DNA from: Clostridiales bacterium
Lineage (GTDB): Bacteria; Bacillota; Clostridia; Oscillospirales; Oscillospiraceae
NCBI GenBank assembly: GCA_021201635.1
Contig: JAJQEM010000126.1
Span: 1 to 33,190 of the forward strand
Length of the DNA: 33,190 bases
Direction: 5' to 3'
Shown in pieces: positions 1,585 through 33,009 of this stretch (positions within the stretch are counted from its first letter, which is position 1; each line of letters opens with the position of its first letter). The position numbers and the translations under genes were made by a program. Below the pieces are notes generated by a model, which saw only the letters and a program-made list of their open reading frames with translations, did not search any database and had not been told where the DNA came from.

Positions 1585-2907
1585 TTACAGCCGGGCCTCC
1601 AAGGCGGCCTTCATGTCCTCATAGCCGGGCTTGCCGAGCAATGCGAACATATTCTTCTTGTAGGCCTCGACGCCCGGCTGATTGAACGGATTGACCCCAA
1701 GCACATAGCCGGAGATGCCGCAGGACAGCTCGAAGAAGTAGATCAGAGCACCGGTGTTGTAGGCGTCGATGGTGTCCACATTGACCAGGATGTTGGGCAC
1801 GCCGCCGTCCACGTGGGCCAGACGAGTGCCCCGCATGGCCTGCTCGCAGACGAATTTCAGCTCCTTCCCGGCCAGGAAGTTCAGGCCGTCCACATTGTCC
1901 TTATCCTCTCCTATGACCACGGAGCCGTGAGGCTTGTCATAGCGCACGATAGTCTCGAACATGATGCGCTCGCCCTGCTGAATATACTGGCCCATGGAGT
2001 GGAGGTCGGCGGTAAATTCCACGCTGGCGGGGTAGATGCCCTTGCCGTCCTTGCCCTCGCTCTCGCCGTAGAGCTGCTTCCACCACTCGCCGAAGAACCG
2101 GAAGCTGGGCTCATAAGCGCCCAGAATCTCCACCTTCTTGCCCTGATTATACAGGACATTCCGGGCTGCCACATACTGCCAGACCGGGTTTGCCATGCTC
2201 TTGTCTGCGCCGAAGGTGTTCATGGCGTCGGCGGCGCCCTGCATCAGGGCCTCGATGTCGATGCCCGCCACGGCGATGGGCAGCAGGCCCACGGCGGTGA
2301 GGACGGAGTAACGGCCTCCCACGTCGTCGGGCACCACGAACTCCTCATAGCCCTCGACATCGGCCAGGCCCTTGAGGGCCCCCCGGGCCTTGTCGGTGGT
2401 GGCATAAATCCGGCGGGCCGCCTCCGCCTTGCCGTACTTGTCCTCCAGTGCAGCCTTGAAGATGCGGAAGGCCACGGCGGGCTCGGTGGTGGTGCCGGAC
2501 TTGGAGATAACGTTGATAGAGAAATCCCGGCCTCCGATCAGCTCCAGGGTCTCCAGCACGGCGTCGGTGGACAGGGTATTACCGGCAAAGAAAATGTCCG
2601 GGGTGTCCTTCTTCTTCAGGTTGTAGTTGGGACTCTGGATCAGCTCCACCACCGCTCTGGCCCCCAGATAGGAGCCGCCGATGCCGATGACCACCAGCAC
2701 CTGGGAGTCGGACTGGATCTTTTTCGCCGCCTTCTGAATGCGGGCAAACTCATCCTTGTCATAGTCCACCGGGAGACGGACCCAGCCGAGGAAATCGTTG
2801 CCCTCTCCCTTCCGGGAGTCCAGCACCTGATGGGCAGCGGCTACCTGGGGGGCGATGGCCTCCAGCTCGGCCTTGGTGACGGCAGAGGAGACGTCTACTT
2901 GAATCAT
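1585..2907 (-). CDS. pgi: glucose-6-phosphate isomerase
   Basis: [10 protein letters not shown]...; motifs [40 protein letters not shown] 7-8 nt upstream of ATG at 2907. Confidence 0.95.
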
Positions 2908-6919: not shown

Positions 6920-7444
6920 ATGAATCCCATCCGTATCCTGACTGTGACCCCTGTCAGTAACTACCGGCTGGTCGTTCTCTGGGATGATGAGACCCTCCGG
7001 CTCTGGTCGTTTCCCTTTCAGGGAAGGTCTCAGCGCTCCCATCCCCTCCGGGATAGTTCATTGTTCCAGCAGGCGGAGGTATCTCCGGACGGGCTCCAGG
7101 TCCTATGGCCCAACGGCGAGTGTCGCACCGCATCGGAGCTCTACTCTGCCAGCAAGTCCCTCCCCCTGACCATGAGCGACCTGATAGAGCTGTGTCGTCA
7201 AAATATCCTGTCCACCAGCGAGGCAGCGGAGCTGCTGAACTGTACCCGGCAAAATGTGGACAATCTGGCGATCCGTGGCAAGCTGCATCCCATCAAATCC
7301 TATAAGCGGAACCGCTTTTTCCTCCGGGGCGACGTGGTCCGCAGACGTTGGTGGAACGGCGCTGCTTTCCCGTCTCCTGACGTCAGTGGAAAAGTGTCTC
7401 CGGTGTCCCTGCCCTGTTCAGAACAGCGCCAGGAAACCACCTAA
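6920..7444 (+). CDS. DUF2442-like N-terminal domain fused to C-terminal helix-turn-helix (excisionase/MerR-like) protein
   Basis: N-term MNPIRILTVTPVSNYRLVVLWDDETLRLWSF...LRDSSLFQQAEVSPDGLQVLWPNGECRTASELY resembles the DUF2442 pattern; C-term ILSTSEAAELLNCTRQNVDNLAIRGKLHPIKSYKRNRFFLRGDVVRRR resembles HTH_17. Confidence 0.6.
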   Translation: MNPIRILTVTPVSNYRLVVLWDDETLRLWSFPFQGRSQRSHPLRDSSLFQQAEVSPDGLQVLWPNGECRTASELYSASKSLPLTMSDLIELCRQNILSTSEAAELLNCTRQNVDNLAIRGKLHPIKSYKRNRFFLRGDVVRRRWWNGAAFPSPDVSGKVSPVSLPCSEQRQETT

Positions 7445-7481
7445 TCCCGGGCTGGGCAAAACAGCCCGCCACAACCAAAGC

Positions 7482-7520
7482 AAAAACGCCCCCTGTCTGG
7501 TGTCTGACAGGGGGCGTTTT
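7482..7520. terminator. bidirectional rho-independent terminator between DUF2442-HTH gene and metG
   Basis: aaaaACGCCCCCTGTCtggtgtctGACAGGGGGCGTtttt. Confidence 0.85.
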
Positions 7521-7554
7521 ACAATATATGCTGTTGCGATGCGGCCCGGAGCGC

Positions 7555-9171
7555 TCAGCTCTCCTTCACCTCCAGCCGCTGATACAGGATGGGGCAGTCG
7601 CCCAGCACCAGGCCCTCCTTGATGTTGATGGGGCTCCAGGTGGGGGTCTCCGGCAGCTCCAGCATGGTGCGGAGCTTGGCACAGCCCCGGGTCAGCACCG
7701 GGTTGAGAAGGTTGGACATATTGGTGATGATATACATACAGGTGGCGGTGGTGTTGTTGAAGGTGGTCTTGTCCTCCGCCTTGACTTGGGTCCAGGGGGC
7801 CTGGCCGTCATAGTACTTGTTGGCGTCCTGGATATACTGGAGCATTTGCTCGGCAGCGGCCCGCAGCTCGCCCGCCTCCAGGTGTGCGCCGATCTCGTCG
7901 TACATCCGCTGGGTCTGAGCCTGGATGTCCGGGTCCACCGTTCCGGCGGGAACGACACCCTTGAACTTCTTCTTCAGGAAAGAGACGTTCCGGTTGACGA
8001 AGTTGCCGAAGGCGCCACAGAGGAACTTGTTGTGGGCGGCGATGAGCTCGTCCTCGCTGTAGCTGATGTCCCGGCGCTCCGGGTTGTTTACCGTGAAGAA
8101 GAAGCGGATGCTGTCCGGGTCGAACTGATCGGCCAGCTCCTGGATAGTCACCAGGTTTCCCTTACTCTTGGACATCTTGTCCTCCCCCAGCTTGACATAC
8201 TCACTGGAGACGATCATCTTGGGGCACTGCCAGCCCTTCTCCAACGCCATGATGAGGGCGGGGAAGATGACCGTGTGGAAGGGGATGTTGTCCTTGCCGT
8301 GGATATAGTAGGTGATGAGGTCGTCGCTGTCCTTCATGAACTCGTCAAAGTCGATGCCCCGCTCCTCGGCCACCTTTCTCCCGGCGGTGAGATAGCCCAT
8401 CACTGCCTCGAACCAGACGTAGATGCGCTTGTCCTCATAGCCCTCGAAGGGGACCTTGACGCCCCACTCCAGGTTCCGGGTGGCGTCCCGGTCCGGCAGT
8501 CCCTGCTCCAGATACTTCTTCGTCTCGTTGACCGCATTGGTGCGCCAGGCGGGGCTGTTCTTCTTATAGTAGTCCTCCAGCTTGTTCTGGAACCGGGACA
8601 GGGCGAACACCATCTCGTGGTTGGGCCGCTGGACGGTGGGATTGCCGCAGGTGATGCAGTGCTTGTCCTTCAGGTCCTCCGGGTCGAAGGAGGTCAGGCA
8701 GTGGTCGCACTGGTCGCCCTTGGCCGGCTTGCCGCACACCGGACACAGACCGGTAATCTCCCGGTCTGCCAGGAACTTGCCGCAGGTCTCGCAGTAGTCC
8801 TGCTGCTTCTCCTTCTCATAGAGGTAGCCGTTGTTGTAGATGTCCACCAGCATCTGGCGGACGTGCTCCTCATGATAATCTGTGAAGGTGGCGGTGTACA
8901 GGTCATAGGAGAAATCCATGGCCTCAAACGCCTTGACGAACTCCTCGTGATACTTGTGGGCAATGGCGGAGGGAGTGGTGCCCTCCTTCCTGGCCCGCTG
9001 GGTGATGGGGGTGCCGTGGGTGTCGGAGCCGGAGACGTAGATCACCTCATCCCCGTGCTGCCGGAAATACCGGGCCAGGATATCCCCGGGGAGCAGGGCC
9101 GCCAGGTGGCCCACATGGAGGGAGTAGTTGGCATAGGGCCAGGCGCCGCCCAGCAGGATCTTTCTCTTCAT
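7555..9171 (-). CDS. metG: methionyl-tRNA synthetase
   Basis: MKRKILLGGAWPYANYSLHVGHLAALLPGD (HIGH motif), zinc-knuckle CETCGKF..CPVCGKP..CDHCLTS..CITCGNP, KMSKSKGN; no C-terminal tRNA-binding extension in this 538-aa form. Confidence 0.95.
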   Translation of the reverse strand: MKRKILLGGAWPYANYSLHVGHLAALLPGDILARYFRQHGDEVIYVSGSDTHGTPITQRARKEGTTPSAIAHKYHEEFVKAFEAMDFSYDLYTATFTDYHEEHVRQMLVDIYNNGYLYEKEKQQDYCETCGKFLADREITGLCPVCGKPAKGDQCDHCLTSFDPEDLKDKHCITCGNPTVQRPNHEMVFALSRFQNKLEDYYKKNSPAWRTNAVNETKKYLEQGLPDRDATRNLEWGVKVPFEGYEDKRIYVWFEAVMGYLTAGRKVAEERGIDFDEFMKDSDDLITYYIHGKDNIPFHTVIFPALIMALEKGWQCPKMIVSSEYVKLGEDKMSKSKGNLVTIQELADQFDPDSIRFFFTVNNPERRDISYSEDELIAAHNKFLCGAFGNFVNRNVSFLKKKFKGVVPAGTVDPDIQAQTQRMYDEIGAHLEAGELRAAAEQMLQYIQDANKYYDGQAPWTQVKAEDKTTFNNTTATCMYIITNMSNLLNPVLTRGCAKLRTMLELPETPTWSPINIKEGLVLGDCPILYQRLEVKES

Positions 9172-24307: not shown

Positions 24308-25276
24308 TTAATAGACCCGCACCATCATGACCACGCCGTATTCCGGGTCAAAGTGAGAGGGATAGACCGTCTGGCTTTCACCTGCCGCCAGGTCCTCCAG
24401 CTTCACGGTATAGGCGATGCCGCCCACATACTCCCCGGTGTCCAATTGGTTCTTGTAGAACAGCCGCAGCTCCGAAATGTCGTCTCCGCTGATGTTGGTC
24501 ACTGTGACTGCACCGGAGTCCGTAGAAATGGACACCTGGTCCTCACACAGGTCCAGAGCGGAAAGATAGGCGATCTCGCTGCCCCCATAACCAAAGGAAG
24601 CCGTCTCACTGCACGACTGTTTGTCCGCCTCCATCACCAGCACCGTCTCCCCGGCGGGGAGCAGGGACACCTCGAAATGCAGCTCTTTTCCATCCGCCGT
24701 CAGAGTGACCGTGGCATATTCGATCACCTGGTCGGAGAGGTTGGTCACCTCCAGGATGGCCACGCTGTCGATCTCGTCCTCTGAGCCGTCCTCGATGTAG
24801 TAGCCGCTGTAATTGTAGACGGCGATCAGCTTTAACTCATCCATAGACGAGGTATAGGGGAACGAAAAAGCAGTCTCCTCCTGTTCCGATGCGCTATCTG
24901 TCTCAACCGTACCCTGAGACGCTGTGGAGCCCTGGGCGTCGCTGTCCCCGTCGCTATCGCTGACGGTATCGGACGAGCCCTCGTCCACGGCGTCCGGCGT
25001 CTCCTCTGTGTCGCCGCTTTCTGCCGTATCGACGCTTTCCTCCGTATCGCTGTCGCTGTCGTCCAGCTCGGGCTCCGCTGTCTCGTCGTCCTCCGCCGGG
25101 AGCGTCTCATCGTCTGTCTCTGTCTCCGTGTTGAGAGCGGCGTCAGAATCCCCGTCCCCGCTGTCTCCCCCCAGGGAGACCAGGACGGCGATCAGGACCG
25201 CCGCCACGACCACGATCACCACGATCACGATAGGGAGCCAGCTCTTTTTTTCTTCCGTTTTTTCACGCTTTCCCAC
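24308..25276 (-). CDS. membrane-anchored protein with acidic Asp/Glu/Ser/Thr-rich linker and extracellular domain
   Basis: N-term basic + TM helix SWLPIVIVVIVVVAAVLIAVLV, then ETETDDETLPAEDDETAEPELDDSDSDTEESVDTAESGDTEE..., C-terminal beta-rich domain. Confidence 0.75.
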   Translation of the reverse strand: MGKREKTEEKKSWLPIVIVVIVVVAAVLIAVLVSLGGDSGDGDSDAALNTETETDDETLPAEDDETAEPELDDSDSDTEESVDTAESGDTEETPDAVDEGSSDTVSDSDGDSDAQGSTASQGTVETDSASEQEETAFSFPYTSSMDELKLIAVYNYSGYYIEDGSEDEIDSVAILEVTNLSDQVIEYATVTLTADGKELHFEVSLLPAGETVLVMEADKQSCSETASFGYGGSEIAYLSALDLCEDQVSISTDSGAVTVTNISGDDISELRLFYKNQLDTGEYVGGIAYTVKLEDLAAGESQTVYPSHFDPEYGVVMMVRVY

Positions 25277-25279
25277 GAT

Positions 25280-26419
25280 TTACTCCTCCCCTTTCAGTTG
25301 TTCCGCCAGACGTTTTGCCGCCTGGGGATAGGCCTCCGCCATGCGGCAGCGGTATTCCGGCACGTTGCAATAGGTCCCCGTCTCGGTCAGCACCGAGGCC
25401 GCACAGGGACGACAGATCTCCTTCTTCTTGCAGTTGGTGCACTTGGCGGGCAGCCGGATGGCCGCCGCCTCCTGGGTGGCTCTGCGCCAGGCCTCGTCAA
25501 AGCCGATGTCGAACACATCGGCGTTTTCTTTGCCCGGCAGCATTCCGCAGGGCAGGAGCCGCCCGTCCCAGGTCACCCAAAAGCTGCACTTCCCCGCCCG
25601 ACAGTGGATGCCCTCGCCCTCGATCTCCTGACAATCGCTGTCCTGGTCGGCGGAAAGGCCGGTCAGCTCCTCGTCGGCCACGTGCTGCAAAAACCGCTCC
25701 CGTCCGTTGGACAGGCACTCGATCTTGGCCGAGTACGCCGCCGCATCCTCCGGGGTGAAGCGGTCATTTTGGCCCACCATGGAGGCGTCCCGGCGCAGGG
25801 GCGGGAACATATAGCTGGTGGCCTGGACGATGAGCTGTTCTGTCTCGCAGAAGGCGAAAATCGCCTCCAGGTCGCGGGCGTTGTACGGCGTGACGCTGCA
25901 ATTGATCTTGATGGGGATACCCGCATCCTTTAACAGGTGAATCGCCCGGGTGACCTGGGTGAACCCCTTCGAGTTGCGGCAGAGACGCCCGTAGGTCTCG
26001 TCAGAGGCCCCGTACAGGGTGATATTCATGCGGACAGGGGGAACCTCCTGTAGCCATTTCACCGTCTCCTCCGTCACCAGGGTGGCGTTGGAGTTGATGG
26101 AGATCAGCAGCCCCATCCGGTGCAGCCCCTCCATGATTTCCCGGAAGTCCGGGCGGGAGAAGGGCTCCCCGCCAGTCAGCAGGAGGTAGAGCATACCCCG
26201 CTTTTTGGCGGTCTCCCCCAGGCGAAGCCACTCCTCCGCCGTGCGGAGGGGGCGGACGGCCTCCTGCTCCTGCTTCGTCATGCGCACATAGCACATCCGG
26301 CAGCTCATGTTGCACACCGGGGTCAGCTCAAAGGTGCCGCTGAGGGGGGACAGCAGCCGGGAGGCCTTTCGGTGGAGGTACTCCGTGATGGGGGCCTCCA
26401 CATACTTGATGTTGTTCAT
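25280..26419 (-). CDS. radical SAM/SPASM-domain protein (peptide-maturase-like)
   Basis: Radical SAM motif CNMSCRMC, LLTGGEPFSRPDF; C-terminal Cys cluster CRAGKCSFWVTWDGRLLPCGMLPG...CTNCKKKEICRPCAASVLTETGTYCNVPEYRC. Confidence 0.9.
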   Translation of the reverse strand: MNNIKYVEAPITEYLHRKASRLLSPLSGTFELTPVCNMSCRMCYVRMTKQEQEAVRPLRTAEEWLRLGETAKKRGMLYLLLTGGEPFSRPDFREIMEGLHRMGLLISINSNATLVTEETVKWLQEVPPVRMNITLYGASDETYGRLCRNSKGFTQVTRAIHLLKDAGIPIKINCSVTPYNARDLEAIFAFCETEQLIVQATSYMFPPLRRDASMVGQNDRFTPEDAAAYSAKIECLSNGRERFLQHVADEELTGLSADQDSDCQEIEGEGIHCRAGKCSFWVTWDGRLLPCGMLPGKENADVFDIGFDEAWRRATQEAAAIRLPAKCTNCKKKEICRPCAASVLTETGTYCNVPEYRCRMAEAYPQAAKRLAEQLKGEE

Positions 26420-27297
26420 AAACCCGCCGTTCCTTTCTCAGACGCCGCCAAAAGCGCCCGTCTCGCCGTCTCCGTCGCCCCTGCGTCCGGCAGACAGCGG
26501 AGCAGCCAGACGGGCACAGAGGTCACAAGCTGCTCGATGAGGGGCAGCACCTGCCGGACAAACGCCCCGTCCCAGCTGTGAATGGTGATTTGAGGGTAGA
26601 GCCGCCGGAGGGCCTGGGCCGGGGTCAGGGGCCGCGCCTCGTTTTCCTTTGCCTGCTCCAGCATGAAGATGGCGGAGACGGGGGCGACCTCGTTGCGGTA
26701 GACCCGGGAGGACCCGGCATAGGGCAGTCCGCAGGCGGTCCAGACCCCGTCCCGCCTGCGGAGCCCCGCCCGGTCGCCGTTGAGCACCTCCGCCCCCTGG
26801 TGGGCCACCCACAGGTCCGCCTGGGTGGACTTGCCCACCCCGGAGTCGGCGGAGAACAGGATGCCCCTCCCCTGCCAGCGGATGAACGAGCAGTGGAGGA
26901 TCATCCCGCCGAAGGGGAGCAGCAGGGACTCCAGCCCCAACAGGTCGCACAGCTTCATGGAGTAGTTCAGCCGGTGCTCCTGGCCCGCCAGATAGTCGCA
27001 GCGGAGGACCTCCGGCTGGGCGGCGGCCCAGGCGACACAGGCGTAGGGCGCACCGGTGGGCGACGGGCGGAAAAAGACCCGCCGCTCCCCCGCCGTCTCC
27101 ACATAACAGCGGTTGCTCTCCTCGTGGCCGTCCGGCGGCGGGGCCGGGAGGGACGGGACCGGACGTCAGAGAAAGCGCACGTCCGGCGGCCCCCCGGTGG
27201 GCGCTGTCAGAAAGGGGGCGGAGGAGGGCTGGACGGAGATGGTAAAGGGCAGCTCCAGCAGGACCCGCAGCCCGGCGATGTGATATTCGTAATTCAT
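26416..27297 (-). CDS. HPr kinase/phosphorylase (HprK)-like kinase, interrupted by in-frame TGA at 27168-27166
   Basis: Walker A SADSGVGKSTQADLW; ILHCSFIRWQGRGILFSADSGVGKST; C-terminal part is open from GTG 27102; same frame extends upstream to RBS-preceded ATG 27297 (MNYEYHIAGLRVLLELPFTISVQPSSAPFLTAPTGGPPDVRFL*RPVPSLPAPPPDGHEESNRCYVETAGERRVFF). Confidence 0.7.
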
Positions 27298-27387: not shown

Positions 27388-27669
27388 TCAGGAGCTAAAG
27401 ATGGTGTAGCCGTTGGACGGGGTGTTGTAGCAGTAGCCACCCACGTCGGTGTCTTCGGAAACGCCCTGTGAGCAAATATTCGTCATGCTTTCAAGCCAGA
27501 CAATGACATTCCCCATATCCCAGCCGCAGGTGGTCTTGCTTGAGTGATTCGGTTTACCCAGAGTGGTGCCGCCGCCGGGCACACCGCAGTTGTCTGCGAT
27601 GGACTGGCTCAACACAAAGCTCTCAAACAGGATCACAGGCTTTTCGTAATTTGTCGTCAAAGCGCTCAT
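27388..27669 (-). CDS. 93-aa Cys-containing small protein, candidate modified-peptide precursor
   Basis: MSALTTNYEKPVILFESFVLSQSIADNCGVPGGGTTLGKPNHSSKTTCGWDMGNVIVWLESMTNICSQGVSEDTDVGGYCYNTPSNGYTIFSS; ATGA overlap with upstream VWA gene stop; four Cys. Confidence 0.7.
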   Translation of the reverse strand: MSALTTNYEKPVILFESFVLSQSIADNCGVPGGGTTLGKPNHSSKTTCGWDMGNVIVWLESMTNICSQGVSEDTDVGGYCYNTPSNGYTIFSS

Positions 27670-30600
27670 CTCCTTCCGTTGAACCAGTTACGGATGGTGT
27701 CGAACAGGGTGCTGAAGAAGGACTGCTGGCTGCTGCCCTCGGTCTCCTCCTGCTCCTCCTCGGTGTCCTCCGTGGGATTGTCGATGACCACGTCGTCCTC
27801 GTCCAGGTCCTCGTAGGTGTCCCCGGTGTCGGCGTCGGTGTCGGTCTCAGTGTCGGTATCAGTCTCGGTGTCCACAACGCTGTCCTCGTCCACGCCGGTT
27901 CCGGTGTAGGCCACGGACTGCAGACTGTCGAAGCTGGCGGCGTAGACCATAATCTCGTTCACCTCGTCCGCACTCAGCAGGGCAATACCTTCAACATCAT
28001 ACACATCCTCACTTGTATCCACCGCCACAGCGCTGGTGACACGGAGCTTGGTGATGGACAGGAGGTTATTTCCGGTGTTCTTCACCATGATATAGCCGTC
28101 GCTGGTGGGGGTAATCTCATAGTAGAGGTCGGTGGTGTGTTTGATGTCCAGGTTGCTGGTGTTGCTACCGTTGGTCACGGTAGCCTCGGTGCCGCTGCCA
28201 TCAAGAGACTTAAGGCCCAGGTAGAAGTGAGCTTCAACGCTGCTATCCAGGTAAGCCTCATTTACCTTGAAGGCGATGGACTGGTTGGCTGCCAGATAGA
28301 CCTCGTTCTTGGGGCCAAGGTCTTCATAGGTGCCAACACTAATTACCGTACCCTCCCCATCATAGATGGTAACGACCTTCGACGTGCTGTTTTCCGTCTC
28401 GGTGTTGCTGCCTTCTTCAGCGTACACGTTGTCGTCGATGAAGACCACGCCGCCGCCTTCTTCGGTGAGTTCACCGTCGGCGGTGAAGCTCTCAGCGGTG
28501 ATCAGCAGGTCCCGGACCTCGGTGAACACGGCGTTCAGCTCGTTGTCGGCCTCGTAGGCGACATAGGCGTCGCCGTCGTCCTCGGTCACAGTGCCCAGGG
28601 GGTTGTAGACCCGGATGCCGTCCAGGTAGTAGGTGTAGCGTCCCTCTGCCGCCGTGGTGACGGTGATGGTCACGGTATAGGTGCCGTATTCCAATTCATC
28701 AAAGGACAGGGTCGGAACCTGGTAATAGGTGCCGCTCACAGACAGGGTGTCAACAATCAGCATCTTGGATACCGATGTACCGTCCACTGTGCCGGTCAGG
28801 GTCGCAAGCACAGTGCCGGTCTTATTACTGGTGCGGCTGTAGATGTCAACGCCGGTGCCGGTGAAGGTGAAGCTGGCCTTTGCGACATTGTTGTTGCTTG
28901 CCTCTGCATAATGGGAGTTGCCGTCGCTGTCGGTGGTGTCGTCGGCCAGCTGGATCTCCCAGCCGTAGGTATCGCCGTTGGCGGTCTCGGTGTTAGTATC
29001 GCCGCTGTCGTCGTTGGCGCTCGAATCCCAAGTGCCCGTGTAGACGATGCCCACAATGCCGCTGGACGAGTCGCCATATGTGGAATCTGTCGCATCGATG
29101 AAGGTATCCTCATAATACACGTTGTTGGCGGGGATGACGCTGACCTCGCTCCAGAGGTTGGCGGTGCCGTCAGTGCGGGCGGCGGTGTTGGTGGTATAGG
29201 TCATGACCGTCTCGTCGTCGGTCTGGCCGAACACATAGAAGCTGTCGTAGCCCTTCCACTGCATGGTGGTGGGGGTGTAGGTCAGGGCACCGGCGGCCAG
29301 TATCGACTTGCCGTAGCTCTGGGTCAGGGTCGTGGTTTCGCTGGCAGAAACCTTCTGATAGCTGCTGACGATATTGGTGATGCTGGTCTGGTCAAGTTTC
29401 TCCAGGCTGGCGGTCTTGGCGTAGTCCAGGACGTAGAGCTTTTTGGTGATGATGGTCTCGGGCTGGTCAAAGGCGGCGGTGGGGTCGGTGGCCTCGCTGT
29501 CGGCGTAGATGCCGGAGGCGGCGTCGTTGGTGTAGACTGCCTCGCCGGTGGTCACGCTCTCGGTGGGCAGGACGCCGGTGATGGTGACGCAGAGCATCTC
29601 GCCCTCGTGGCCGCTGGAGATGTAGTTGGTCGTATAGTCAAAGCCGGTGACGGAGACGGTGTTGTTTTCAACGTCCTTGGTGACGGTGCAGCTCGCAGAT
29701 GTATTTGTTGCAGTCGTGCCAAATGTGACGTTGCCGTCGTCGCCCACTGAGCCGGAATAGGTTGCAACTGTGACCTCGGAATCACTTGTCAGGGTGAAGC
29801 CGTCGGCCATGATGTCCTTTAGCACGGAGTTGGCGTCAAGGGTGGTGGAGGTGGAGGAGGTGGTGGCGTCGCTAGTGATTGTTGAGAATACGTTGTTCAG
29901 CTCATCCGCATCGGAAGCGGTCATGTAATACTTGGTAGCAGCCTGCGTTCCACCACTGCTCATTGATGTGGCGCTGGGATAGTTGGAGGACAGGTAGTTC
30001 ATGAAGTTAGTGACGTTGGTGCTTTGTGACGTCGTATACAGACCGACGGTATACACGGTTGCGCTGTAGTCCGTCTTCGCCGTATAGGCCGCACTGATGG
30101 CGGAGCCCGCTTCTGTGGTGTCGAAGCTGCTGCTGTTCTGGCCAGGCTGACCATCGGTGAACACGACCACGATGCGCTTACGGGTCGCAGGGTTGCCATT
30201 ATCGTCCGTGTAGGTGTTGCTGTTGTTGGCAAACACCTGATTTGCCATCGACATACCGTAAGAAGTCCGGGTCGCACCGCTGGCGGCAAAGTTGTTGATT
30301 GCCGCAGTGATGGAGGAAGCAACGCTGCCGTTGTCGTTGACGGAAACCAGAGCGCTTGTATAATCGCTGGTCTGCAACGAACCATAGTTCGTCAAATTGC
30401 CACTTGTTCCAAGAAACAGGCCCGTATTGACCCAGCTGGAGCTGCTGCTGCCGGAGCTAATGCTATATTTTGAACTACTACCACTTGATCCATCACTGCT
30501 ATTGGACGCAAATCCCACGATGGCGATACGGTGGTCAACGCCATAGGTTTCTGCGTTTTTCTGTATTGTGCTCACAAAGCTGGTGACGGCAGTTTTCAAC

Positions 30601-31199
30601 GCAGCCAGCTTGGTGGTAGAACCGCTCGTGGCAGTGTACAGAACGCCTGTCCAGATGACGGTGGAATTGCTGGACACATCCTCTGGCTGAGTTGTGGTGG
30701 TGCCGGTGCCGCTGAGATAATGGTAAGTACCGTTGCTATCTTTATATCTCAGGTAGTACTCAGGGTCACCATATAACCACGACCAACTGTTTCCGTTACC
30801 ACGGGAGACCTCATAATAGTTGCCGTCCTCAGCCAGATAATAATAGGTATTACTGCCATAGCTGCTATAGGTGTACTCATTGCTCTCCAGTGCAGTATAG
30901 CTCGTGCTGCTGATGGTATCCACCATAGACCCGGACTGGTCGATGACCAGAACGATGTCCAACGGAGCGCTGGTGGTGGTCGTCGTCGTGGTGGTGGTGC
31001 CGGTGGCATAGGCCGTCAGGTCGATGGTGTAGGTGCCGTCGTCCTCCAGGGTGGCGGTCTTGGTCAGTTCGATGCCGCTAGTGGTGGTGTCGCCGGTGTC
31101 ATCCGCAAAGGCCGCCACGGGCAGCATGGTCAGGAGCATGGCCAGAGACAGGACCCATGTCAGAATCCGCCCTGGTATCTTTTTCTTCATCTTTTTCAT
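27666..31199 (-). CDS. large secreted von Willebrand factor A (VWA) domain surface protein
   Basis: Signal peptide MKKMKKKIPGRILTWVLSLAMLLTMLPVAAFA; MIDAS motif LDIVLVIDQSGSM; acidic repeat tail TDTETDTDTETDTDADTGD; RBS AAGGAGG (start 31199 or 31190). Confidence 0.88.
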   Translation of the reverse strand: MKKMKKKIPGRILTWVLSLAMLLTMLPVAAFADDTGDTTTSGIELTKTATLEDDGTYTIDLTAYATGTTTTTTTTTSAPLDIVLVIDQSGSMVDTISSTSYTALESNEYTYSSYGSNTYYYLAEDGNYYEVSRGNGNSWSWLYGDPEYYLRYKDSNGTYHYLSGTGTTTTQPEDVSSNSTVIWTGVLYTATSGSTTKLAALKTAVTSFVSTIQKNAETYGVDHRIAIVGFASNSSDGSSGSSSKYSISSGSSSSSWVNTGLFLGTSGNLTNYGSLQTSDYTSALVSVNDNGSVASSITAAINNFAASGATRTSYGMSMANQVFANNSNTYTDDNGNPATRKRIVVVFTDGQPGQNSSSFDTTEAGSAISAAYTAKTDYSATVYTVGLYTTSQSTNVTNFMNYLSSNYPSATSMSSGGTQAATKYYMTASDADELNNVFSTITSDATTSSTSTTLDANSVLKDIMADGFTLTSDSEVTVATYSGSVGDDGNVTFGTTATNTSASCTVTKDVENNTVSVTGFDYTTNYISSGHEGEMLCVTITGVLPTESVTTGEAVYTNDAASGIYADSEATDPTAAFDQPETIITKKLYVLDYAKTASLEKLDQTSITNIVSSYQKVSASETTTLTQSYGKSILAAGALTYTPTTMQWKGYDSFYVFGQTDDETVMTYTTNTAARTDGTANLWSEVSVIPANNVYYEDTFIDATDSTYGDSSSGIVGIVYTGTWDSSANDDSGDTNTETANGDTYGWEIQLADDTTDSDGNSHYAEASNNNVAKASFTFTGTGVDIYSRTSNKTGTVLATLTGTVDGTSVSKMLIVDTLSVSGTYYQVPTLSFDELEYGTYTVTITVTTAAEGRYTYYLDGIRVYNPLGTVTEDDGDAYVAYEADNELNAVFTEVRDLLITAESFTADGELTEEGGGVVFIDDNVYAEEGSNTETENSTSKVVTIYDGEGTVISVGTYEDLGPKNEVYLAANQSIAFKVNEAYLDSSVEAHFYLGLKSLDGSGTEATVTNGSNTSNLDIKHTTDLYYEITPTSDGYIMVKNTGNNLLSITKLRVTSAVAVDTSEDVYDVEGIALLSADEVNEIMVYAASFDSLQSVAYTGTGVDEDSVVDTETDTDTETDTDADTGDTYEDLDEDDVVIDNPTEDTEEEQEETEGSSQQSFFSTLFDTIRNWFNGRR

Positions 31200-31263: not shown

Positions 31264-31551
31264 TCAGCACAGGAGCACTGCGCTGTGGGCCTGGGCCGCC
31301 TCCAGAAAGTCGGTCACGTCCCGGAGGCTCTGCTCCTCCGTCAGGTCATACTCTGCGGCGAACCGCTGGCACAGCTCCCCCAGGGAGCGCTCCTGCTCCA
31401 GCAGCGACCAGAGGAAAGCGCCGGTGCGGTTCATGGTGCCCATCCCCTGAAATTGTTTGCTTGCCTTGCCAGTAGGAACAATAACGCTCTCACCGACAAT
31501 TTCCCGAAAGATGTAATCGGGATTTCTGCGGAACCGGGATGATGTGTCCAT
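31264..31551 (-). CDS. PqqD-family (RiPP recognition element-like) protein
   Basis: FRRNPDYIFREIVGESVIVPTGKASKQFQGMGTMNRTGAFLWSLLEQERSLGELCQRFAAEYDLTEEQSLRDVTDFLEAAQAH matches PqqD pattern (N-term beta strands, then wHTH). Confidence 0.85.
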   Translation of the reverse strand: MDTSSRFRRNPDYIFREIVGESVIVPTGKASKQFQGMGTMNRTGAFLWSLLEQERSLGELCQRFAAEYDLTEEQSLRDVTDFLEAAQAHSAVLLC

Positions 31552-31710: not shown

Positions 31711-32856
31711 TCAGCTTGTTGATCTGGTCTTTTTTAACGCCATAGATGGATGCACATAACGCTGCATGGTGACGGAGACGTTGGCGTGCCCCATCATTTC
31801 ACTGAGGGATTTGACATCGACCCCCTTTTCTATACAGCGGGTCGCAAACGTATGCCTGAGAATATGAAAATTATAATCAGGCAACCCAGCTCTGCGAAGC
31901 AGTCTTTTATACTTATCGAGGCAGACTCTTGGCTCCATCAATTTTTCGGTCCCGGTAACGATAAAGGCGTTGTCTTTCCCGCTCCGTGCGGAAAAGTAAT
32001 CCGCCAGGTCGTCCACGAGCGGGACGGTACGCAGGGAAGAGAGTGTTTTCGGTTTGTCGATCAGGATCTTCGTTCGTGCGGCGCTCTCCCCGTTCATATC
32101 ATAAATGCGCATCACTGTTTTATTGACCGTCACTGTGCCGGACGTGAAATGAAAATCGCCCCATTGCAGGGCGCAGACTTCGCCGATCCGCAGACCGGCA
32201 TACAGGGCAATCAAAATGCCAAGGGTGAATGGTGCCTCATGTTCCAGGACGTAGTTCACCAGCGCTTCCTGTTCTTCTCGAGACAGCACATGGATTCTGG
32301 GCCGAATATATGACATTGCCGGGCACTGCGGAACCGCAGGTATGACCCCATGAGACCGGGCATACTTTAGAATTTGTGTTAAAATCACCTTGATGTCCGC
32401 CACGCTGTTTGCAGATAAGGGAGCGCTCGCCGCCAATCTCCCTGACTGCCGCTTATCTGTCAGAAATGTTTCCAACATGGCGGAGTCAATTTCGCATACC
32501 GGGACCGTGCCAAGCGTTGGCAGCAAATGCTTTTCGACTTGATTGGCATAATGTATATATGTGGATTCCTTTACTAACGGCTGTTTTGCCGCAAGCCAGC
32601 TTGCGGCGACCTCTGAAAATAATACGTCATGATTCTCTCTATTTTCCCCTGTCGGCAATTGCCGCTGACCAGGCGTTGCCTGATCCGGGACGGTTTGCCC
32701 CCTTAAAAACGCTTCTCTGCGCTGTTTGGCCTCCCGGTAGCTCCTGCCGTAAATACACTTGTAGTGTTTCGCACCACTCTCTGGAGAAATAACGAGTGTC
32801 CTCGCCTCCCATCGCCCGTCCGTCCGCTGGCGAATATTTTCTCCATGTCGTCCCAT
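31711..32856 (-). CDS. tyrosine recombinase (phage/ICE-type integrase)
   Basis: N-term arm-binding-like MGRHGENIRQRTDGRWEARTLV; SAM-like core; catalytic ALYAGLRIGEVCALQWGD, HILRHTFATRCIEKGVDVKSLSEMMGHANVSVTMQRYVHPS; ATG at 32856. Confidence 0.93.
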   Translation of the reverse strand: MGRHGENIRQRTDGRWEARTLVISPESGAKHYKCIYGRSYREAKQRREAFLRGQTVPDQATPGQRQLPTGENRENHDVLFSEVAASWLAAKQPLVKESTYIHYANQVEKHLLPTLGTVPVCEIDSAMLETFLTDKRQSGRLAASAPLSANSVADIKVILTQILKYARSHGVIPAVPQCPAMSYIRPRIHVLSREEQEALVNYVLEHEAPFTLGILIALYAGLRIGEVCALQWGDFHFTSGTVTVNKTVMRIYDMNGESAARTKILIDKPKTLSSLRTVPLVDDLADYFSARSGKDNAFIVTGTEKLMEPRVCLDKYKRLLRRAGLPDYNFHILRHTFATRCIEKGVDVKSLSEMMGHANVSVTMQRYVHPSMALKKTRSTS

Positions 32857-33009
32857 AATGCAAGCCTCACTTTCTGATTTTTCAAAGCGCAGTCCTTGAC
32901 CACGAATGTGGCCATCAACCCGTCCCATTCAGCCGACCCTGCGCATCAAAGATCGCCGGAAACCCGCCCTTTTATCGTCATTCCCCCGAAAGCGAAAACC
33001 TTCGCGTTG

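Follow-up and report, generated by a model that had tools for sequence, protein, structure and literature searches.

An apparently undescribed family of candidate modified peptides encoded beside radical SAM and HprK-like kinase genes in gut Clostridia

Among the closest described systems are the LPPs, linear polyphosphorylated peptides of Bacillota (PMC13381572, 2026), whose core set comprises SpI, an RRE, an HprK-like kinase, an NTP transferase and an MsbA-like transporter and is often found in capsule loci (PMC13381572). In lasso and LPP systems, discrete PqqD-type proteins bind leaders of the form [Y/W]xxPx[L/V/I/F/A] (PMC13381572; PMC10368454). With regard to the kinases, LppK acts on Ser3 of the LPP core and not on its C-terminus (PMC13381572), and BsfK also acts on Ser3 of the core, with the His, Lys, Ser and Asp pair corresponding to the kinase motifs being important in this enzyme (PMC10368454). 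In lasso precursors, PadeK and PsmK place the phosphate on the C-terminal Ser, which is conserved in clusters with a homologous kinase, and PsmN, annotated as a nucleotidyltransferase, is needed for the hexose on the phosphate (PMC9266682). In the open-access literature that we found, no radical SAM enzyme was described in LPP or paeninodin clusters (the term is absent from the main text of the LPP paper, PMC13381572), and no description of HprK, radical SAM enzyme and precursor in combination was found.

In this study, we analyzed a 33,190-nucleotide stretch of DNA (hereafter the window) from a Clostridiales bacterium, which carries a same-strand run of integrase, PqqD, VWA protein, small peptide, HprK-like kinase, radical SAM/SPASM enzyme and membrane-anchored protein genes, with no exporter gene in the cassette. 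The features are as follows.

31711-32928, minus strand: tyrosine integrase immediately preceding PqqD, as is also seen at four other loci
31264-31551, minus strand: discrete PqqD-family recognition protein (RRE; Pfam PqqD, 1.1e-14)
27666-31199, minus strand: secreted VWA protein of 1177 aa with a C-terminal amphipathic tail (...IRNWFNGRR; Pfam VWA, adjacency)
27670-27677, minus strand: Shine-Dalgarno sequence ggaaggag, 9 nt before TTG 27660
27388-27669, minus strand: 93-aa ORF as first reported, by translation, beginning at an ATG that overlaps the VWA stop
27388-27660, minus strand: putative precursor peptide, likely native 90-aa form from TTG (start register in homologs, Shine-Dalgarno spacing, HMM family, purifying selection)
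27631-27648, minus strand: leader motif YEKPVI, matching [Y/W]xxPx[L/V/I/F/A] (Tyr and Pro 100% conserved; motif function from PMC13381572 and PMC10368454)
27391-27399, minus strand: C-terminal F-S-S (F-x-S in the family), whose near-invariant terminal Ser is the proposed kinase target (alignment, C-terminus counts)
26416-27297, minus strand: HprK-like peptide kinase gene, in which a TGA (27168-27166) falls in frame (full-length homologs, conserved His, P-loop and Asp, HprK structure matches)
25280-26419, minus strand: radical SAM/SPASM maturase with CxxxCxMC and C-terminal SPASM-type Cys (Pfam Radical_SAM, 1.8e-25; alignment; SkfB profile match)
24308-25276, minus strand: membrane-anchored protein with an N-terminal TM helix, a low-complexity linker and beta-sandwich domains (AlphaFold2; 50 of 83 loci)

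First, this system shares with the LPPs a discrete PqqD-type RRE, a YxxP leader motif and an HprK-like kinase; some loci further share a PF14907 NTP transferase, a SipW-like signal peptidase, an ABC exporter and capsule genes. However, the LPP leader pattern YxxPxVLxHQxIxFETxxS was not matched by the family described here (YxKPx[LIV]xxExFxLxxxIA), the two being alike only in YxxP; LPP cores are phosphorylated at Ser3 and have a variable C-terminus, whereas this family, found in Clostridia, has conserved Cys and a C-terminal Ser and is linked to a large secreted protein. Second, the paeninodin and pseudomycoidin lasso systems (PadeK, PsmK, PsmN) have in common with it an RRE, an HprK-like kinase, in some cases a nucleotidyltransferase, and a precursor with conserved C-terminal Ser, but here a radical SAM/SPASM enzyme and a Cys-containing core are present instead; neither a lasso macrolactam cyclase (C) nor a B2 leader peptidase was recognised among the conserved neighbour clusters. 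Third, HprK-like ScmC, PqqD-like ScmD and radical SAM ScmE/F are named in NCBIfam as one cassette, SynChlorMet, and our kinase and radical SAM enzyme matched ScmC (2e-9) and ScmE (1e-24), although far below the curated cut-offs (37 vs 125 bits and 87 vs 400 bits, respectively) and with one radical SAM enzyme rather than two. Based on the literature on RREs and kinases and on accessory genes near some cassettes, the system is therefore read as an RRE-kinase RiPP with a radical SAM/SPASM enzyme in place of the lasso machinery. Near 83 confident peptides, these accessory clusters were the NTP transferase (PF14907 cluster; 13), SpI (11) and ABC (9). The genome of the window contains a SpI homolog, and PF14907 was not found there; at L068 both PF14907 and the ABC exporter were confirmed, the peptidase being a sub-threshold S24-type match. 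Capsule genes (CpsB/CapC, Wzz and others) occur in the flanks of L068 and L083, with CpsB/Wzz at L083, as reported for LPP and paeninodin loci.

The original prediction proposed that a 93-aa ORF, located between the VWA and kinase genes and without signal peptide, was a candidate precursor. The ORF, its position and the absence of a signal-peptide-like stretch in the 93-aa translation were all reproduced; its Cys are at residues 28, 48, 66 and 80, and its C-terminal end is GGYCYNTPSNGYTIFSS. The ATGA overlap with the VWA stop, taken in the prediction as the start, does exist, but TTG at 27660 is the likelier start codon. The Shine-Dalgarno sequence touches the ATG (zero spacing) but lies 9 nt from this TTG, and homologs start exactly four codons ahead of the leader Tyr (ATG in 68, TTG in 5 and GTG in 2). 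Thus, a native peptide of 90 aa appears most likely.

The peptide had no match in Pfam, NCBIfam or PHROGs, nor had 33 family members in Pfam/NCBIfam, and tblastn found none in phage and plasmid records. When the peptide alone was searched against 301 genomes of the same family, 13 genomes had a match, and a few of these matches were weak and were removed afterwards; two weak hits, L024 and L025, were discarded as lying in unrelated frames or long ORFs. An order-wide profile search added homologs, one of them a second copy within the genome of the window, and 78 named loci were then retrieved with the profile of the radical SAM enzyme. Most of these 78 loci come from metagenome-assembled genomes called Oscillospiraceae, Lachnospiraceae or Clostridia, many from gut or faeces according to their titles, and the isolates include Anaeromassilibacillus senegalensis An867, Faecalicatena contorta ET55 and Fusibacillus kribbianus. 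Iterated HMM search yielded 90 peptides (87 distinct, or 85 after removal of one fragment and one truncated copy).

In the family consensus, the leader reads Y-x-K-P-x-[LIV]-x-x-E-x-F-x-L-x-x-x-I-A; there are usually four Cys, spaced about 14-20 residues from one another, as well as a C-Y pair, and the C-terminus has the form F-x-S. Among 86 aligned rows, the leader Tyr and Pro were conserved in 100% and the Glu in 93%, Cys1 to Cys4 in 99%, 96%, 98% and 89%, the Tyr after Cys4 in 91%, Phe near the end in 84% and the terminal Ser in 94%. Ser ends 79 of the 85 distinct peptides while accounting for 8.4% of residues overall (a binomial comparison that ignores relatedness), and it is the majority C-terminal residue in 17 of 22 clusters at 40% identity. 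From the many Ser/Thr/Tyr/Cys targets that had been suggested, the choice can thereby be narrowed to the near-invariant Ser at the C-terminus, the four conserved Cys and the Tyr that follows the last of them. I-A-x-C was considered as a lipobox and rejected: no hydrophobic stretch precedes it, and over half of the members carry one additional residue. A divergent subfamily with the leader FxANEYVAAC was also observed (L129 4226-4573, L135 2499-2894, L069 13443-13820), with the radical SAM gene directly downstream, no kinase between, and a C-terminus of N-[SA]-S or N-[SA]-S-V.

A short ORF with no database family match could be a spurious frame in an intergenic gap; this explanation, to which we assign a negligible probability, is refuted by about 85 distinct homologs, the fixed start register, purifying selection and the fixed cassette. 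The dN/dS of the peptide gene was about 0.20 to its near relative L061 and 0.09 between L064 and L060, many other peptide pairs being saturated. Homologs found from the peptide alone, the ratio to L061 and the invariant leader Tyr and Pro confirm, at the level of sequence, that the small ORF is real and more than chance.

Simple BLAST clustering near the 83 confident peptides placed a radical SAM gene at 75, a kinase at 67, the membrane-anchored protein at 50, the large secreted protein at 47 and PqqD at 45, and HMMs find more neighbours; for L060-L137, which were fetched with the radical SAM enzyme, its presence is by construction, and adjacency was judged on peptide-first loci. Within 9 kb of the 24 peptide-first members, radical SAM and kinase genes were found at 18 and 20, respectively, and 21 of the 24 adjoin a cassette kinase or radical SAM gene (the three exceptions being two orphans and one at a contig end). 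Gene order varies: PqqD may stand at either end, and one arrangement places the large protein after the radical SAM enzyme. No peptide adjoins the enzymes at about ten loci, and a few peptides are orphans. The two outcomes named with the original prediction as refuting it were both looked for, and neither was observed: profile searches recovered about 85 distinct homologs in gut Clostridia, both YxKPxxxxExFxLxxxIA..C and CY...FxS are kept across them, and homologs are consistently found beside PqqD, radical SAM and kinase genes. In addition, dN/dS to the near relative indicates purifying selection. As expected of a RiPP locus, a short encoded precursor with a conserved leader lies beside modifying enzymes and an RRE, and this ORF very probably encodes a RiPP precursor, in support of the original idea.

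For the proposed pathway, it is highly likely that the PqqD-family protein would bind the leader through Y-x-K-P-x-[LIV] and present the peptide. The radical SAM enzyme, which has the CxxxCxxC and C-terminal Cys set of radical SAM/SPASM maturases, would cross-link the core, most likely through at least one of the four conserved Cys, a step that we consider somewhat probable. As in sactipeptides and ranthipeptides (SkfB, PapB), a SPASM radical SAM maturase is paired with a Cys-containing precursor, the best solved-structure match of the enzyme family is the sactipeptide maturase SkfB, and the PapB ranthipeptide model matched below cut-off, so that the product might be a bacteriocin of either type, with the kinase and the surface protein incidental. 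However, this appears unlikely: the Cys are widely spaced, the kinase and large surface-protein partner are conserved almost to the extent of the radical SAM enzyme, and the conserved neighbours include no dedicated immunity gene and mostly no exporter. The pairing of PqqD with a SPASM-type enzyme, together with weak similarity to mycofactocin and PQQ maturase models, could also point to the precursor of a PQQ- or mycofactocin-like redox cofactor. Yet all these scores were far below curated cut-offs, no dehydrogenase is present in the conserved neighbourhood, and neither the kinase nor the large surface protein fits into the PQQ or mycofactocin pathways, which makes a cofactor very improbable.

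Returning to the cross-linked, phosphorylated peptide that we favor, the HprK-like kinase would phosphorylate the hydroxyl of the C-terminal Ser, as PadeK and PsmK do in lasso peptides; by analogy, this is the likeliest reading, and we hold it with moderate confidence. In 92 family kinases, the His, the P-loop GK[ST]T and the Asp of NGDR were fully or nearly conserved. Compared with the paeninodin-type motif (His, GxxGxGK[ST], Asp-Asp), the His, GK[ST]T and second Asp are kept, whereas the first Asp is replaced by Gly (NGDR). The kinase profile matched HprK structures across the conserved stretch (E 0.004), and members matched ScmC and HprK-related models below cut-off. On the other hand, the kinase might act on a Ser/Thr near the leader/core border, with the C-terminal F-x-S serving as a recognition or export element. 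LppK and BsfK, of the same HprK-like type and with YxxP leaders, act on core Ser3 (PMC13381572; PMC10368454), and five of the only six peptides that have enough flank and no nearby kinase still end in Ser. However, no border Ser/Thr in the alignment is as conserved as the last residue, and paeninodin-type kinases modify exactly the C-terminal Ser (PMC9266682); border phosphorylation thus seems rather improbable. Three peptides with a nearby kinase end in FGSY or FASV, and kinase presence was not significantly associated with terminal Ser (Fisher p=0.27); peptides lacking a kinase are too scarce, and most of them retain Ser, for these counts to demonstrate a link of kinase to C-terminal Ser.

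In the window, the kinase gene contains an in-frame TGA (27168-27166) at a position where aligned relatives, which are intact, read through, and its catalytic C-terminal part is open from GTG 27102. Thus, this copy may reflect a real loss, perhaps being inactive, or an assembly error. The same genome carries two more cassettes with open kinase frames (L045, contig G000:C102, and L142, contig G000:C37), which could act in trans. The L142 cassette, the third of the genome, encodes a longer divergent peptide (1943-2383, plus strand; MSNKTYSRPDF...) with PqqD, kinase, radical SAM and integrase genes and no large protein on its short contig.

In five cassettes (the window, L142, L073, L082 and L089), two of which belong to one genome, PqqD is preceded on its own strand by a tyrosine integrase gene about 60-240 bp upstream, an arrangement that suggests cassette mobility or swapping. 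At L066 of Fusibacillus kribbianus, an apparent IS21-type transposase pair (7097-8980) replaces the expected peptide and kinase front half, and no VWA gene was found; this looks like a broken cassette.

Finally, the large protein appeared to be closely associated with the peptide. In 42 of the 82 cases, an ORF of 500 aa or more on the same strand ended between -60 and +20 nt relative to the peptide start; among control genes from the same loci, 31 of 942 (3.3%) were preceded in this way. In L050 and L127, the large protein stands beside the peptide and the enzymes are not near, so that large protein and peptide may be the minimal pair. Many large partners start with a Sec-type signal, and their content differs. 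At the C-terminus, several have a short amphipathic aromatic tail and others sortase-type signals. Many partners without LPXTG end in an acidic linker and a short amphipathic aromatic helix (IRNWFNGRR, FFKSLFRW, LLGWLFK), as at 27669-27735 (minus strand) in the window, which is possibly an unrecognised surface-retention signal. The predicted model of the VWA protein (pLDDT 55) was too poor for use; that of the membrane-anchored protein had pLDDT above 90 over most of residues 141-321, and a fold search with it returned only generic beta-sandwich matches. We infer that the product would act at the cell surface together with two proteins of the same gene run, the large secreted one and the membrane-anchored beta-sandwich one, a role to which we give even odds. 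In some loci, completion and export of the product would fall to the PF14907 nucleotidyltransferase, SipW-like signal peptidase and ABC exporter.

Taken as a whole, the explanation that best fits these sequence data is a PqqD-bound precursor that would be cross-linked by the radical SAM enzyme, phosphorylated by the kinase on its C-terminal Ser and active at the surface with the large protein (probability roughly 0.65). The family, which is widespread in gut Clostridia, is apparently an undescribed family of chemically modified peptides. It would combine two modification logics, radical SAM chemistry and HprK-like phosphorylation (probably of the C-terminal Ser), which the open-access papers found do not describe together. 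More tentatively, and with rather less than even confidence, it may represent a RiPP class of its own in gut Clostridia, in which a peptide cross-linked by the radical SAM enzyme, phosphorylated at its C-terminus and possibly sugar-capped serves as the dedicated partner of a giant surface protein (for example, a bound decoration or surface signal), with some cassettes moved by the adjoining integrase. The purpose of phosphorylated RiPPs has been stated as unknown for LPPs and paeninodins (PMC13381572), and the frequent pairing with large surface proteins provides a testable lead on it.
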